Origin: an endosymbiont of Bathymodiolus septemdierum str. Myojin knoll
GTDB taxonomy: Bacteria > Pseudomonadota > Gammaproteobacteria > PS1 > Pseudothioglobaceae
Length of the DNA stretch: 64,000 bases
Direction: 5' to 3'
Assembly: GCF_001547755.1 (NCBI RefSeq)
Contig: NZ_AP013042.1
Coordinates: 62,001-126,000, forward strand
The notes below the pieces were generated by a model. It saw nothing but the letters and a program-made list of their open reading frames with translations. It had not been told where the DNA came from and searched no databases. Positions 5,742 through 11,265 of the stretch are shown here, piece after piece (within the stretch, counting starts at the first letter, position 1; the number at the start of each line of letters is the position of its first letter). Both the position numbers and the translations under genes were made by a program.

Positions 5742-5754
5742 GCATGTTTTATCT

Positions 5755-5790
5755 TAGTCCATTATTAATTTATAGTCCATTATTAATTTA
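5755..5790 (+). repeat. 18-bp tandem duplication in the leader of the DGR target gene
   Basis: Two perfect copies of TAGTCCATTATTAATTTA (5755-5772 and 5773-5790) lie between the -10 box and the start codon. Repeat-number change here could alter expression; that is inference. Confidence 0.8.
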
Positions 5791-5794
5791 TATT

Positions 5795-8700
5795 ATGAAT
5801 ACATTATTAACAAACTCAACCCAAACCCACTCATCAATAGCAAATATCGCGGGGGGGCACATTTCTAATGTACTCAACAAACTCAAACAACTCCTCCTCT
5901 TCAGCGCACTAACCTTATCACTGAATGTTACCGCTGTTGACAAGCCTCAAAGCTTTGATAAAGAAGCCTACTTAAACCTTAACCAAGAATACAACTGGAA
6001 CAACCCTCAAACTTATTACAAAAAAGACAACCAAGGGCTGCTAATACTCAAGCAAGTCGGTAGCACAGTGCGTAACACTCTAGGCGCTACTAATTCAGAC
6101 AATGCCAACCAATTTGGCAGCACACTTAAAAACAACCTTAAAAACCAAGCCATTAACCAAGTTGTTAGTGGTACCGAAGGCTATATCAACAACAAAGCCA
6201 ACGAATATGCCAATCAATTTGGCGCTGGTCGCACTGAAATCCAATTAGGTGGATTTAACTCAGAAGCACTCAATTACAACATTAAAACCATTCAACCCCT
6301 CTCTGAACTTAACGAAGACAGCCAAGATTTAATCTTCTTCCAAGGACAACTAACCTCAGGTCAAAATCACAGCGAACGCCGTGAAACCTTAAACCTAGGT
6401 ATCGGCTATCGCAAATTACTAGAAGCAGGGCAATCGATTGCCGGCATCAACCTCTTCACCGACTATGAAACCCAATCTGCACACAAACGCGCCAGCATCG
6501 GCTTAGAATACCAAAGAACCAATTTTAAAGCCAACTTTAACAAATACCAATCACTCTCAGACAAAAAAGTCATTGGTAGTTTTACTGAAGAAGTACTTGA
6601 TGGTTATGATGTGAAACTAGAAGGACAAATCCCTTACCTGCCTTGGGCTAAAATCAAAGGCACCCGCTATGTTTGGGACAAAACCACCAACGCCAACAGC
6701 GTAGATATTAAAGGCACCATTCTTGGTGTTGAAGTGCAACTCTCTGACGCCGCTCGCTTTGAGTTCGGCACTGAGAAGTCCAACAGCGCTGATAGTAACA
6801 GCTACGCCCGCCTAAGCATGGCAATACCTTTTAAAGACAGTAAGTTCACCAACTTTAAAATAGCCGATAAAGCCTTTAAAAACACAAACAAAATGCAATT
6901 GGGTGAATTTGCCTGGGTAGAACGAAGCAACAAAATCCGTATTGAAAAAGTCACAAATGGTGGCACTATTATCCTAGGTGAATACAATGCCTTTACTGTC
7001 GGCGCAACTTGTACCATCACTGACAGTGCAAGCGTATCAACAGTCGCAACCACAGGATCCGATGGCTCTGTTACCCTGCCAAGTCTTAGTATTCCAGCAG
7101 GCTTAGTGACTATGAGTTGTACTGGCGGTACTTACACCGATGAGGCAACTAACGCTGCAGGCACCGTAGCAGCAACTCTTCGTGTAGCTACGATTTACTC
7201 AGGCACAGGTCCTTTAACGATTTTAGCCTCACCACTGTCTGAAATTGCTTATCAATTGGCAGACGCAGCAGGTGGTATTGCAACTGATATTACCGCTCAA
7301 AACATCGCTGTTGCAACCGCCTTTGGTATCGCAGGGGTTGACCTTGCTGCCACCATTCCAACCGACATTAGCCCTACCACTGGCACTGTCGCAGGCAATG
7401 ACCCTGCAGGCAAGTTTGCTATTGCCTTAGCCGCTGTCTCACAGATAATGGAAAACTCAGCCACCGACGGTGGACAATCGCCCTCTGCTGCAAAGACAAA
7501 GGCACTTATTACTGCCCTAGTAATTGATATGGGCGATGGTGACATCGATGGCATAGATGACGGTACTGGCACTATGATTGATATCGCTATGGCAATTAGT
7601 AACTTTGATAACGGCACAGGCAATAACAACCCAGCCGCCGATACTGGAAGTAGTAATGCAGGCACTGCAGCCACAGCCGTCAAAGACAACCTAGCCATTC
7701 TTGCCTCTGACAGTGTGCTAGCCGATATTGGTACTGATGCTAATACTGCTAGCACCTCTGACACCACCATTGCTGAGTTTGGCAGTATCTTGCCAGCACT
7801 CACTGATTTTGTGAATGCCAACTTGAGCGCTTATCAAACTTACATTGATGCCAACCCAGGCAGTTTTGCCTCGCCTGCCACGCAAGCTGAAGTACAAGCA
7901 ATGATTACTGCGGTGAATGCTGCGGTAACTGCTGCTGCTGCCTCTGACAGTGTGCTAGCCGATATTGGTACTGATGCTAATACTGCTAGCACCTCTGACA
8001 CCACCATTGCTGAGTTTGGCAGTATCTTGCCAGCACTCACTGATTTTGTGAATGCCAACTTGAGCGCTTATCAAACTTACATTGATGCCAACCCAGGCAG
8101 TTTTGCCTCGCCTGCCACGCAAGCTGAAGTACAAGCAATGATTACTGCGGTGAATACTCCACCAACTCTAAGCAGCTCTACCCCAGCTGACAATGCATCT
8201 GCTGTTGCTGTCGCTAGCAATATCGTACTAACCTTTAGTAAACCTATGATAAAAGGCAGCAGTGGTGATATCGTACTCCGTAGATTGATTTCAGGCACCG
8301 ACACAATCATTGAAACCTTTGCTTTTAATAGTGCAAAAGTTACGATAGGCACAGGTGCCACACAAAATGTGGTTACCATTAACCCAACGGCTGATTTAGT
8401 GTTTAATGGTGTCTACCATATCACCATTGCCAGCGGTGCACTAACAGATGTTTCAGCCAATGCCTATACAGGTATTACTAATGCTACGACACTGAACTTT
8501 GAAGTGATTGCACAAAGTATAGACGGCTATAAAACAGTGCGCTCTCCAGATACAGATAAACTATGGCTAGATAGAAACCTAGGAGCAACACAAGTAGCCA
8601 CTTCAAGCACAGATAGCGCTAGTTATGGTGATTTATACCAATGGGGCAGAAAGGCTGATGGACATGAAGACAGAACAAAGACTAGCACATCAAGCACACT

Positions 8701-9121
8701 GACTTCTGATATCACCAATGCAAGCACAACGCTATTTATTACTAGTGCTAGTGATTGGGTAAATGTAGATTCATTAGGTGCATCGCGCACTGCCGCTTGG
8801 GCAGATGGCGGAGTCAATGACATTTGTCCAGCAGGCTTTAGTGTGCCAACTGATGCTGAACTAGCCGCTGATACTACCGGTGCCACCACCACGGATATTA
8901 TCAACAGCGCCACAGCCTTCTCTAGCTTCTTGAAAATCCCACTTGCTGGCAACCGCTATCGGTCGGATGGCACGCTTTACAGTGTTGGCACTTTCGCCAC
9001 CTTGTGGAGTCGCTCTGCTGATGGGTCGTATGCTCGCCGTTTGGGCATCGATAGTGGCGATGCGTGCTTCGACAGCAATGATCGTGCCGACGGCTTTAGT
9101 GTTCGTTGTATTAAGGATTAA
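5795..9121 (+). CDS. Inverse-autotransporter (intimin/invasin-like) surface protein, DGR target with variable C-terminal domain
   Basis: About 1108 residues from the ATG at 5795; the frame is open further upstream but reads AT-rich leader. The order of parts is: a long signal peptide with its hydrophobic core near residues 31-47 (LLLFSALTLSLNVTA); an inverse-autotransporter beta-barrel at about 142-348, starting FGAGRTEIQLGGF and with the family's GYRKLLEAGQSIAGINLFTD stretch; Ig-like and Thr/Asp/Ala-rich passenger segments; two perfect 72-residue repeats; an SbsA-type Ig domain starting PPTLSSSTPADNAS; and a C-terminal FISUMP domain with LWLDRNLGA and DICPAGFSVPTDAEL. The FISUMP/C-type-lectin-like fold is a usual DGR substrate. 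In inverse autotransporters the C-terminus is exported to the cell exterior, so the variable face is predicted to point outward, suiting adhesion to host, phage or other cells. It heads the retroelement. Ligand unknown. Confidence 0.88.
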   Translation: MNTLLTNSTQTHSSIANIAGGHISNVLNKLKQLLLFSALTLSLNVTAVDKPQSFDKEAYLNLNQEYNWNNPQTYYKKDNQGLLILKQVGSTVRNTLGATNSDNANQFGSTLKNNLKNQAINQVVSGTEGYINNKANEYANQFGAGRTEIQLGGFNSEALNYNIKTIQPLSELNEDSQDLIFFQGQLTSGQNHSERRETLNLGIGYRKLLEAGQSIAGINLFTDYETQSAHKRASIGLEYQRTNFKANFNKYQSLSDKKVIGSFTEEVLDGYDVKLEGQIPYLPWAKIKGTRYVWDKTTNANSVDIKGTILGVEVQLSDAARFEFGTEKSNSADSNSYARLSMAIPFKDSKFTNFKIADKAFKNTNKMQLGEFAWVERSNKIRIEKVTNGGTIILGEYNAFTVGATCTITDSASVSTVATTGSDGSVTLPSLSIPAGLVTMSCTGGTYTDEATNAAGTVAATLRVATIYSGTGPLTILASPLSEIAYQLADAAGGIATDITAQNIAVATAFGIAGVDLAATIPTDISPTTGTVAGNDPAGKFAIALAAVSQIMENSATDGGQSPSAAKTKALITALVIDMGDGDIDGIDDGTGTMIDIAMAISNFDNGTGNNNPAADTGSSNAGTAATAVKDNLAILASDSVLADIGTDANTASTSDTTIAEFGSILPALTDFVNANLSAYQTYIDANPGSFASPATQAEVQAMITAVNAAVTAAAASDSVLADIGTDANTASTSDTTIAEFGSILPALTDFVNANLSAYQTYIDANPGSFASPATQAEVQAMITAVNTPPTLSSSTPADNASAVAVASNIVLTFSKPMIKGSSGDIVLRRLISGTDTIIETFAFNSAKVTIGTGATQNVVTINPTADLVFNGVYHITIASGALTDVSANAYTGITNATTLNFEVIAQSIDGYKTVRSPDTDKLWLDRNLGATQVATSSTDSASYGDLYQWGRKADGHEDRTKTSTSSTLTSDITNASTTLFITSASDWVNVDSLGASRTAAWADGGVNDICPAGFSVPTDAELAADTTGATTTDIINSATAFSSFLKIPLAGNRYRSDGTLYSVGTFATLWSRSADGSYARRLGIDSGDACFDSNDRADGFSVRCIKD
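7703..7918 (+). repeat. Perfect 216-bp repeat in the passenger, copy 1
   Basis: Identical to 7940-8155 at every base (72 codons, 237-bp period). Perfect identity points to a recent duplication and to a passenger that can change length by recombination. Confidence 0.93.
7940..8155 (+). repeat. Perfect 216-bp repeat in the passenger, copy 2
   Basis: Second copy of the unit at 7703-7918. It is separated from the first by a short Ala/Thr-rich linker (7919-7939). Confidence 0.93.
8943..9120 (+). repeat. DGR variable region (VR)
   Basis: The last 178 bp before the stop of the target gene. It aligns without gaps to the template repeat 11088-11265. There are 20 base differences, all at positions where the template has A (20 of 48 template adenines, 0 of 130 other bases). 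They change 16 of 18 Asn codons of the template to Tyr, Asp, Ser, Phe, Thr, Arg, Gly or Cys. The final 28 bp or so, starting CGGCTTTAGTGTTCG, are identical in both and would serve as the initiation-of-mutagenic-homology region. Confidence 0.96.
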
Positions 9122-9204
9122 GCGCAGCGTGCCACTTTGACAATTTGCACACTTTGACCCTTGACACAGACATCTCGCAGGGTGGCTGGGTGCTCTTGGC
9201 TTTG

Positions 9205-9228
9205 TGCGCCGTAGGCGCAAGTTTTTTT
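9205..9228 (+). terminator. Hairpin with T-run downstream of the VR
   Basis: TGCGCC (9205-9210), loop GTA and GGCGCA (9214-9219) are followed by a T-rich run. It looks like a rho-independent terminator for the target gene. It also lies about 85 bp after the VR, where DGRs often carry a hairpin that promotes retrohoming; either or both roles are possible. Confidence 0.65.
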
Positions 9229-9250
9229 AAAATTTTAAGGCACTAAAACT

Positions 9251-9425
9251 ATGGATAAAGATAGGGCGGGCGCCTTCATCTATTGCTAGTTTTGAGCTTC
9301 AACAAAAAGAAATTGTTAATGCTATTGCTGAATTTTCAATAGCACAAAGTACGCGCTTGGAGGCGTTAGAATTTTTGCTGAGCTTAAGAGAAAAAACTAG
9401 GTATTTTTATCAAGAAAATGAATGA
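9251..9425 (+). pseudogene. Small ORF upstream of the reverse transcriptase, frame-broken
   Basis: From the ATG at 9251 (MDKDRAG) the frame closes at a TAG within 13 codons. One base out of frame, a continuous reading follows: APSSIASFELQQKEIVNAIA, then a Leu/Glu-rich helix-like stretch ending YFYQENE. It stops at 9423-9425 and overlaps the reverse transcriptase ATG at 9418. The overlap and helical character suggest a real small accessory gene of about 57 residues with a one-base frameshift in the G/C run near 9263-9272. I do not recognise its family. Confidence 0.4.
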
Positions 9426-10619
9426 TAAATTTGACAATTTGGTCTATCAGTTGTATTTGGCTTATTACGATGCGCGTAAAAACAAACGCAATAGCCAAAT
9501 CAGTTAGCATTCGAGTTTGATTATGAATCAAAATTGATTGAATTAGCAACACAAATTAATAATCAAACTTACCAGCCTAAGTCATCCACTGTATTTATGG
9601 TTAACAAGCCTGTTAAGCGCGAAATATTCGCTGCTGATTTTGTTGACAGGGTGGTACATCATCTTATCTATCGGGCAATTTATGGCGATATTGAAAAGTG
9701 CTTTATTGAGGATAGTTATAGTTGCCGACAAAATAAAGGCAGTTTGTATGGTATTAAACGAGCCACTAAGTTTATTCGCCAAGCAACGGATAACTACCAA
9801 AAACAAGCTTTTATTTTAAAACTCGATATCCAAGGGTATTTTATGCACATCAGGCATGAGGTGATTTACCAGAAAGTTTTGCAAATTTTAGATAAAGACA
9901 AAACTTATAATGGATTGTCTTTTGAGTTGATTACTTACTTACTGTAAAAGACTATTTTTAATGAAGTAACACAAAATTGCATGCTTAAAGGCAGTAGAAA
10001 AGATTGGCATGGCTTACCTAAGGATAAGTCATTATTTGGCAATGAAAAAGGTGTAGGGTTGCCTATTGGCAATCTTACCTCGCAGATGTTTGGCAATTTG
10101 TATTTGAATGATTTAGATCGTTTTATTAAGCAAGATTTGGGGATTAAATATTATGGTCGTTATGTAGATGATATGTTGTTTGTGCATGAAGACAAGGCGT
10201 ATCTAAAGGCTATTATTAGTAAAATCCAGGCGCAGATTAAACCAATAGGTTTAAAACTACATCCCAAAAAAATCTATTTACAGCCCTATCAGCATGGGGT
10301 TTTATTTCTAGGGCAATATATCAAACCTTATCGTAATTATGTGAGTAATAGAGTGAAAGCTAGTTTCTACCAAACACTAAGAAAAGTGAATGAATTACTG
10401 GTTGAAAGTGAGAGGATTGAGTGGGTAATCATAAAGAGCATTCAATCCAAACTAAATGCTTATTTGGGTATCTTAAAACACGCCAGTAGTTATCAGCTCA
10501 TTAAAAAAGCCACAGCTATTTTGATTAAGCGATTTTATTGTTTCTTTGCCTTTGCAAAAAACTACACTAAGGTGACGATTAATAAAGGATTCTGGCAATG
10601 GCATTATTTAGCGAATTAA
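9418..10619 (+). pseudogene. DGR-type reverse transcriptase with a frameshift and an in-frame stop
   Basis: Reads as a DGR reverse transcriptase of about 400 residues if two lesions are ignored. The N-terminus starts at 9418 (MNDKFDNLVYQLYLAYYDAR). A one-base loss in the A-run near 9497-9500 moves the reading frame, which continues QLAFEFDYESKLIELATQ. An in-frame TAA at 9945-9947 then interrupts between ELITYLL and KTIFNEVTQNC, and the same frame runs on to 10619. Motifs present are KREIFAADFVDRVVHH, the LKLDIQGYFMHI segment with a catalytic Asp, the DGR-typical LPIGNLTSQMFGNLYLNDLD, the catalytic YVDD in YYGRYVDDMLF, and FLGQYIKPYR. The intact motifs point to recent damage, a sequencing error at the A-run, or recoding. 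The end overlaps avd by 22 bp. Confidence 0.88.
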
Positions 10620-10957
10620 GTGTTTATAAAATAGGCTATGATTTTTTACTGGAGATTTATAATCGCACAAAAAAATTCCCAAGAGAATACAAATTTAGCC
10701 TAGGTGAAAAAATGAAGCAGGCTAGTTTGGATTTGTTGATTGATGTGTATAAAGCCAATAAAAGTAGAAAAGAAACCAGAATTATCCATATTGAAAATGC
10801 TAGACAAAGCGTGGAAGTGCTAAGATTATTTTTGCGAATTAGTAAGGATCTGCAACTATTAAGCACTAAAGGCTTTGCCTCTTTAAACATAATGATACAA
10901 GATTTATCCAAACAACTAACAGCATGGCAAAAGTACATGACCAGAGTTGGTAAATAG
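10598..10957 (+). CDS. avd: DGR accessory variability determinant (Avd-like four-helix protein)
   Basis: 119-residue basic, all-helical protein of the four-helix-bundle (S23-like) family. In DGRs, Avd forms a pentameric ring that binds the reverse transcriptase and template RNA and is needed for mutagenic retrohoming. The start KIGYDFLLEIYNRTKKFPRE followed by an EKMKQASLDLLIDVYKAN helix is typical, and many Lys/Arg residues are present. The gene is intact and overlaps the end of the reverse transcriptase by 22 bp, so it depends on translation through the damaged RT or on its own initiation. The template repeat follows within 130 bp. Confidence 0.85.
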   Translation: MALFSELSVYKIGYDFLLEIYNRTKKFPREYKFSLGEKMKQASLDLLIDVYKANKSRKETRIIHIENARQSVEVLRLFLRISKDLQLLSTKGFASLNIMIQDLSKQLTAWQKYMTRVGK

Positions 10958-11087
10958 CGAGTGCTTTTATCAAGTGTGTCTGTCTTTATCCTAACAAACC
11001 CTTGTTTTTAAACAACAGGACAATAGTCAACCTTTATGAGAGAAAAAAACTTATAAAATTAAAAGTGTTTGTTTTTAAAGTTGCCAG

Positions 11088-11265
11088 TTGCTGGCAACCG
11101 CAATCGGTCGAATGGCACGCTTAACAATGTTGGCACTAACGCCAACTTGTGGAGTCGCTCTGCTAATGGGTCGAATGCTCGCAATTTGAACATCAATAGT
11201 GGCAATGCGAACTTCAACAGCAATAATCGTGCCAACGGCTTTAGTGTTCGTTGTATTAAGGATTA
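11088..11265 (+). repeat. DGR template repeat (TR)
   Basis: 178 bp donor copy for the VR, in the same orientation and downstream of avd. It has 48 adenines, concentrated in 18 AAY codons, so mutagenesis at A can give many residues but never a stop. Similarity to the target also extends weakly 5' (TTGCCA against ATCCCA), but with non-A differences, so the mutagenic tract is taken to begin at 11088. The open frame over it (11069-11266) has no start signal and is best read as non-coding template RNA. Confidence 0.95.

Follow-up and report, generated by a model that had tools for sequence, protein, structure and literature searches.

Probable inactivation of the sole reverse transcriptase of a four-target diversity-generating retroelement in a Bathymodiolus septemdierum symbiont

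Layout of the element and its adhesin targets

The genome of the endosymbiont of Bathymodiolus septemdierum str. Myojin knoll is assembled as one contig of 1,469,434 bases (1.47 Mb, 100% complete), and the window considered here, i.e. the whole 64,000-nucleotide stretch that was analysed, covers its positions 62001-126000. A diversity-generating retroelement (DGR) of the RT-Avd-TR order spans positions 5744-11265 of the window. It comprises, all on the + strand, an adhesin gene whose 3' end holds a variable region (VR), a small open reading frame (ORF), a reverse transcriptase (RT) gene, the gene for the accessory protein Avd and the template repeat (TR). Outside the DGR, genes are densely packed across the window and their frames are long and open, those of the neighbours of the RT gene included.

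The first target gene (5744-9121) encodes an adhesin of 1125 residues, assigned to the inverse autotransporters (intimin/invasin type) by its IAT beta-barrel (PF11924, 3.8e-33, residues 120-396). Apart from the barrel, it carries a Big_5 domain (PF13205, 1.7e-13) and a C-terminal FISUMP (Fib_succ_major) domain, the latter a weak profile match below the curated cut-off (PF09603, 1.1e-6), inside which the VR (8939-9120) is located. This domain is a candidate for the C-type-lectin-like fold that harbours the VR in surface-exposed DGR targets. Avd (10598-10957, 119 residues) is intact, with matches to PF22296 above the cut-off (2.3e-19), to the PHROG Avd profile (4.7e-23) and to NF033474, where 62.7 bits fall short of the cut-off of 80; its dN/dS against the thiotrophic gill symbiont of B. 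heckerae (BHECKSOX) is 0.198. The TR (11084-11265) occurs as a single copy in this genome. The disrupted RT gene (9418-10619) matches the PHROG RT profile (1.5e-77), and a read-through alignment with other DGR RTs recovers DGR motif 4, (L/I/V)GxxxSQ, as IGNLTSQ along with an intact YVDD catalytic motif at 10161-10172, in agreement with the initial annotation, which had described the motifs as otherwise complete.

The TR matches four VRs, located at 41, 71 (window), 189 and 325 kb of the genome, each of which ends a paralogous adhesin. The three outside the window (G000:C1:41501, 189357 and 324733) had been overlooked in the initial annotation, as had two features described below, the 4-bp duplication that disrupts the small ORF and the deletion in a second genomic copy. 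Of the 49 A sites of the TR, each of the four VRs has 20-26 changed, as against 0-3 of the 133 non-A sites; in the window VR the numbers are 20 and one, respectively, and its sole non-A difference sits at the 5' edge. The earlier observation that TR, VR and Avd are undecayed thus holds. Such an A-specific pattern shows A-directed diversification; that it came about by retrohoming is deduced by analogy with known DGRs. The genes at 71, 189 and 325 kb show 0-3 differences over ~700 nt ahead of the VR, and their VRs differ pairwise at 24-25 A sites. Either the VRs would have been rewritten after the genes were last homogenised, or gene conversion would have halted at the VR, and both scenarios fit a recently active element.

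The VR at 189 kb (L034, 189357-189541) contains an in-frame three-base insertion relative to the TR. The adhesin at this locus is flanked by a gene and its partial second copy (L034 3170-3970 and 8298-8908), as if an insertion had duplicated its surroundings. A Y1 (IS200-like) transposase gene follows the adhesins at 41 kb (L033 6320-6976) and 189 kb (L034 7663-8320), with a broken frame at the latter.

Lesions of the reverse transcriptase and their age

The RT gene is divided into three open pieces (9418-9507, 9534-9947 and 9981-10619). The first frame begins with the ATG at 9418 and runs for 29 codons to a TAG at 9505-9507. The rest of the RT is read in the frame of 9534, and the offset of two bases between the frames amounts to the loss of one base. 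The initial annotation had placed such a loss in an A-run near 9497-9500, and comparison bears this out: the window has three A (lesion 1, 9497-9499) where the relative G005 and an RT fragment of G007 (L044) have four, and the downstream RT is out of frame. Lesion 1 removes an N-terminal Y..(A/C)R.NKR-like motif found in nearly all other aligned RTs; therefore, a restart at 9534 should not yield a working enzyme. Lesion 2, the previously noted in-frame TAA at 9945-9947, occupies the site of a glutamine codon in both BHECKSOX and G005. It is a substitution, for which a homopolymer error offers no explanation, as had been argued earlier; the ATG opening the third piece lies 33 nt past this stop.

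A third defect affects the small ORF abutting the RT gene (9251-9425), which is broken by a 4-bp GGGC duplication near 9265-9272. The copy of this ORF at 41 kb is free of the duplication, and its frame is open across that point. A Pfam search with the ORF gave no credible family match, and G005 showed no such ORF at the corresponding position. Judged by its sequence, the element is a DGR by descent that lacks an intact expressible RT and would thus be incomplete as a working DGR.

The age of the inactivation can be approached from the divergence of the RT. Its dN/dS is 0.091 against BHECKSOX (273 codons) and 0.103 against G005 (179 codons), with dS of 0.8-0.9 in both comparisons, and zero indels are present in 825 nt aligned with BHECKSOX. 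At 75 columns conserved to at least 90% in ~21 other DGR RTs, the window RT deviates five times, each deviation being common to BHECKSOX or G005 and none private, while the RTs of BHECKSOX and G005 each carry private deviations. A mild excess of nonsynonymous changes on the window branch is not significant (12 nonsynonymous and 17 synonymous changes versus 15 and 38 in the relatives; Fisher p = 0.33). Because dN/dS is ~0.09 and no change at a conserved column is private, the RT appears to have been functional for most of its separate history, and its inactivation is probably recent compared to the divergence of the relatives. The initial description of the event as "very recent" is therefore upheld in part: purifying selection until late, fresh VRs and the lack of private changes at conserved columns favour it, whereas a deletion shared with the second copy may make lesion 1 older.

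This second copy lies at 41 kb, where ~600 nt of the region downstream of the window adhesin recur behind the adhesin. They contain a 5' RT fragment, which carries the same one-base deletion as lesion 1 and ends near the Y1 transposase gene. Apart from one scrambled stretch of ~35 nt, this copy has diverged from the window by roughly 1-2%. Lesion 1 may predate the copying to 41 kb, although a transfer of the deletion by gene conversion from one copy to the other would account for its presence in both as well. If shared by descent, the deletion would predate the 1-2% split, yet the other VRs are nearly devoid of non-A changes; this weakly hints that lesion 1 is somewhat older than the last VR rewriting and that some rewriting followed it. 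The argument is limited by small numbers, by constraint on VR sites and by the chance that gene conversion moved the deletion. Rewriting later than lesion 1 would be impossible with a dead RT and would speak against plain inactivation.

Recurrent loss of the enzyme in related symbionts

Counterparts of this RT are also broken in BHECKSOX, G005, G007 and G006, four genomes in all. In BHECKSOX, a TGA replaces the codon of a tryptophan that is invariant in other RTs; it lies only 21 codons from the stop of the window, and Avd and TR are intact. The RT of G005 has a nonsense codon near lesion 1 and a miniature inverted-repeat transposable element (MITE) inside, and a second MITE replaces its 3' part and Avd; G007 holds several RT fragments with stops and MITEs, and G006 an RT remnant only. 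By comparison, the genome scan turned up 21 RTs in other organisms, all of them open over the match. As the lesions differ between genomes, the losses are independent, and the window RT represents one case of recurrent, independent loss in the symbiont group.

The MITE is ~160 bp long and has the ends GAGACCTTTGCATAAATA; in several relatives it is inserted into RT sequence or stands in its place (L041 7563-8418; L114 2045; L043; L044), and it is absent from the window. Intact RTs of another type are kept in G002 and BHECKSOX. The second DGR of BHECKSOX (L112, G058:C9) has the Avd-RT order and an open RT, which is close to the RT of G002 and 47-49% identical to the type considered here. In the relative G002 (G002:C1, L036-L040), ten identical TR copies and at least ten Avd copies stand beside adhesin genes; only two RTs, differing by 2 nt, are full-length, and most other units have an RT cut off after ~92 residues, identical over 700 nt.

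Interpretation and comparison with known systems

The evidence is best explained by a once-active, four-target DGR whose sole RT has, very probably, been inactivated by a genuine deletion and a nonsense mutation, recently and as one of the recurrent losses. In this reading, one TR and one RT served four paralogous adhesins, whose C-terminal FISUMP domains would have been diversified through A-directed mutagenic retrohoming. The only RT would then have been inactivated by the one-base deletion and the nonsense mutation, both absent from the compared relatives. With both lesions in the only RT, no full-length enzyme is expected, and four adhesin variants would be frozen in that genotype. The suggestion of the initial annotation that inactivation freezes one adhesin variant is thus retained as to recent inactivation and amended as to number, since four paralogous adhesins share the TR.

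The null allele may, however, be polymorphic rather than fixed. It is possible, albeit tentative, that real lesions are carried by part of a mixed, recombining population in which the DGR stays alive, with VRs renewed by recombination or by RT-positive lineages. Symbionts of B. septemdierum have an effective recombination rate among the highest reported in bacteria and occur as mixed genotypes within hosts (PMC7473567), which is in line with such a segregating allele. The fresh VRs in all four targets and the weak sign of rewriting later than lesion 1 point the same way; the latter would be accounted for if intact and null RT alleles coexisted in the population. Against this, the comparison rests on one assembled genome of the species, and the RT decays to remnants in relatives, so that loss is completed in some lineages.

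An error of assembly or sequencing, behind which the RT would be intact, is very unlikely. Although lesion 1 falls within an A-run and the genome may stem from a mixed population, the run is just 3-4 bases long, and the presence of the same deletion at a second assembly locus argues against the assembly error that the initial annotation had allowed for at this point. The substitution nature of lesion 2, the open neighbouring genes and the independent lesions of the same gene in relatives count against it as well.

Still more doubtful is a split or recoded enzyme, in which 9534-9947 and 9981-10619 would act as two polypeptides, or frameshifting and readthrough would restore the full length. Both longer pieces are open, and the stop of BHECKSOX lies close to that of the window; nevertheless, lesion 1 cuts off the N-terminal motif that other DGR RTs retain, the RNA around it shows no notable structure (z = -0.50), the stop in BHECKSOX replaces an invariant tryptophan codon, and larger parts of the gene are gone in G005, G007 and G006. 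Recoding, raised initially, is further disfavoured by TAA being an ordinary stop, which ends the RT frame and all four adhesins, and by the shift of frame in addition. Lastly, RT provided in trans by another locus of the same cell, also considered earlier and made conceivable by the coexistence of two DGRs, one with an intact RT of another type, in BHECKSOX, is hardly credible and already refuted for chromosomal copies: the complete one-contig genome yields a single PF00078 match (the window RT), a single Avd in the search for a second and, besides the RT gene, only the dead 5' fragment as a match to the RT sequence.

For the favoured reading of a recently inactivated sole RT, the wider implication concerns how long diversification is needed. 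DGRs are commonly regarded as a lasting source of diversity. That the RT has been lost repeatedly and independently in one genus of animal symbionts, while the targets, the template and the accessory gene were retained, suggests that diversification pays temporarily and becomes dispensable or costly once the adhesins fit. A further, rather unlikely proposal is that, in a highly recombining symbiont population, the DGR is toggled by null RT alleles that emerge, spread and are displaced in turn, giving bursts of rewriting in RT-positive lineages and constancy in RT-null ones; burst-wise diversification is raised because the rewriting of the VRs seems to be as young as lesion 1 or younger. The related genomes represent different stages (intact, single stop, MITE-ridden, remnant) and would allow the loss to be timed and to be related to host association.

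In the literature collection searched, "diversity-generating retroelement" together with Bathymodiolus gave no paper, and "retroelement" gave animal-genome papers only. DGRs with a dead RT and fresh VR/TR are already known, while recurrent loss within one symbiont genus is new. In the DiGReF survey, RTs disrupted by a nonsense mutation, an insertion or a frameshift are described beside VR and TR that differ only at A, for example in Ruminococcus gnavus ATCC 29149 (nonsense), Acaryochloris marina (insertion element) and Bacteroides sp. 9_1_42FAA (frameshift) in its Fig. 4, and the authors of the survey inferred very recent inactivation (PMC3521204). The window resembles these in its dead RT and its VR/TR differences at A; it differs in having two lesions in one gene, four frozen targets, a lesion-sharing second copy and independent losses within the genus. 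Multi-VR DGRs with paralogous targets, e.g. those of Nostoc and Magnetospirillum, are listed in Table 2 of the same survey (PMC3521204); as in the window, one RT and TR serve several paralogues with different VRs, whereas the targets here are symbiont inverse autotransporters and the RT is dead. The closest named relative is the DGR of BHECKSOX (NZ_FQTP01000053.1, L082), which shares the RT-Avd-TR order and an RT ~85% identical in DNA and ~87% in protein. The RT is broken and Avd and TR are intact in both, but BHECKSOX differs in its lesion and in its possession of a second, intact DGR of another type.
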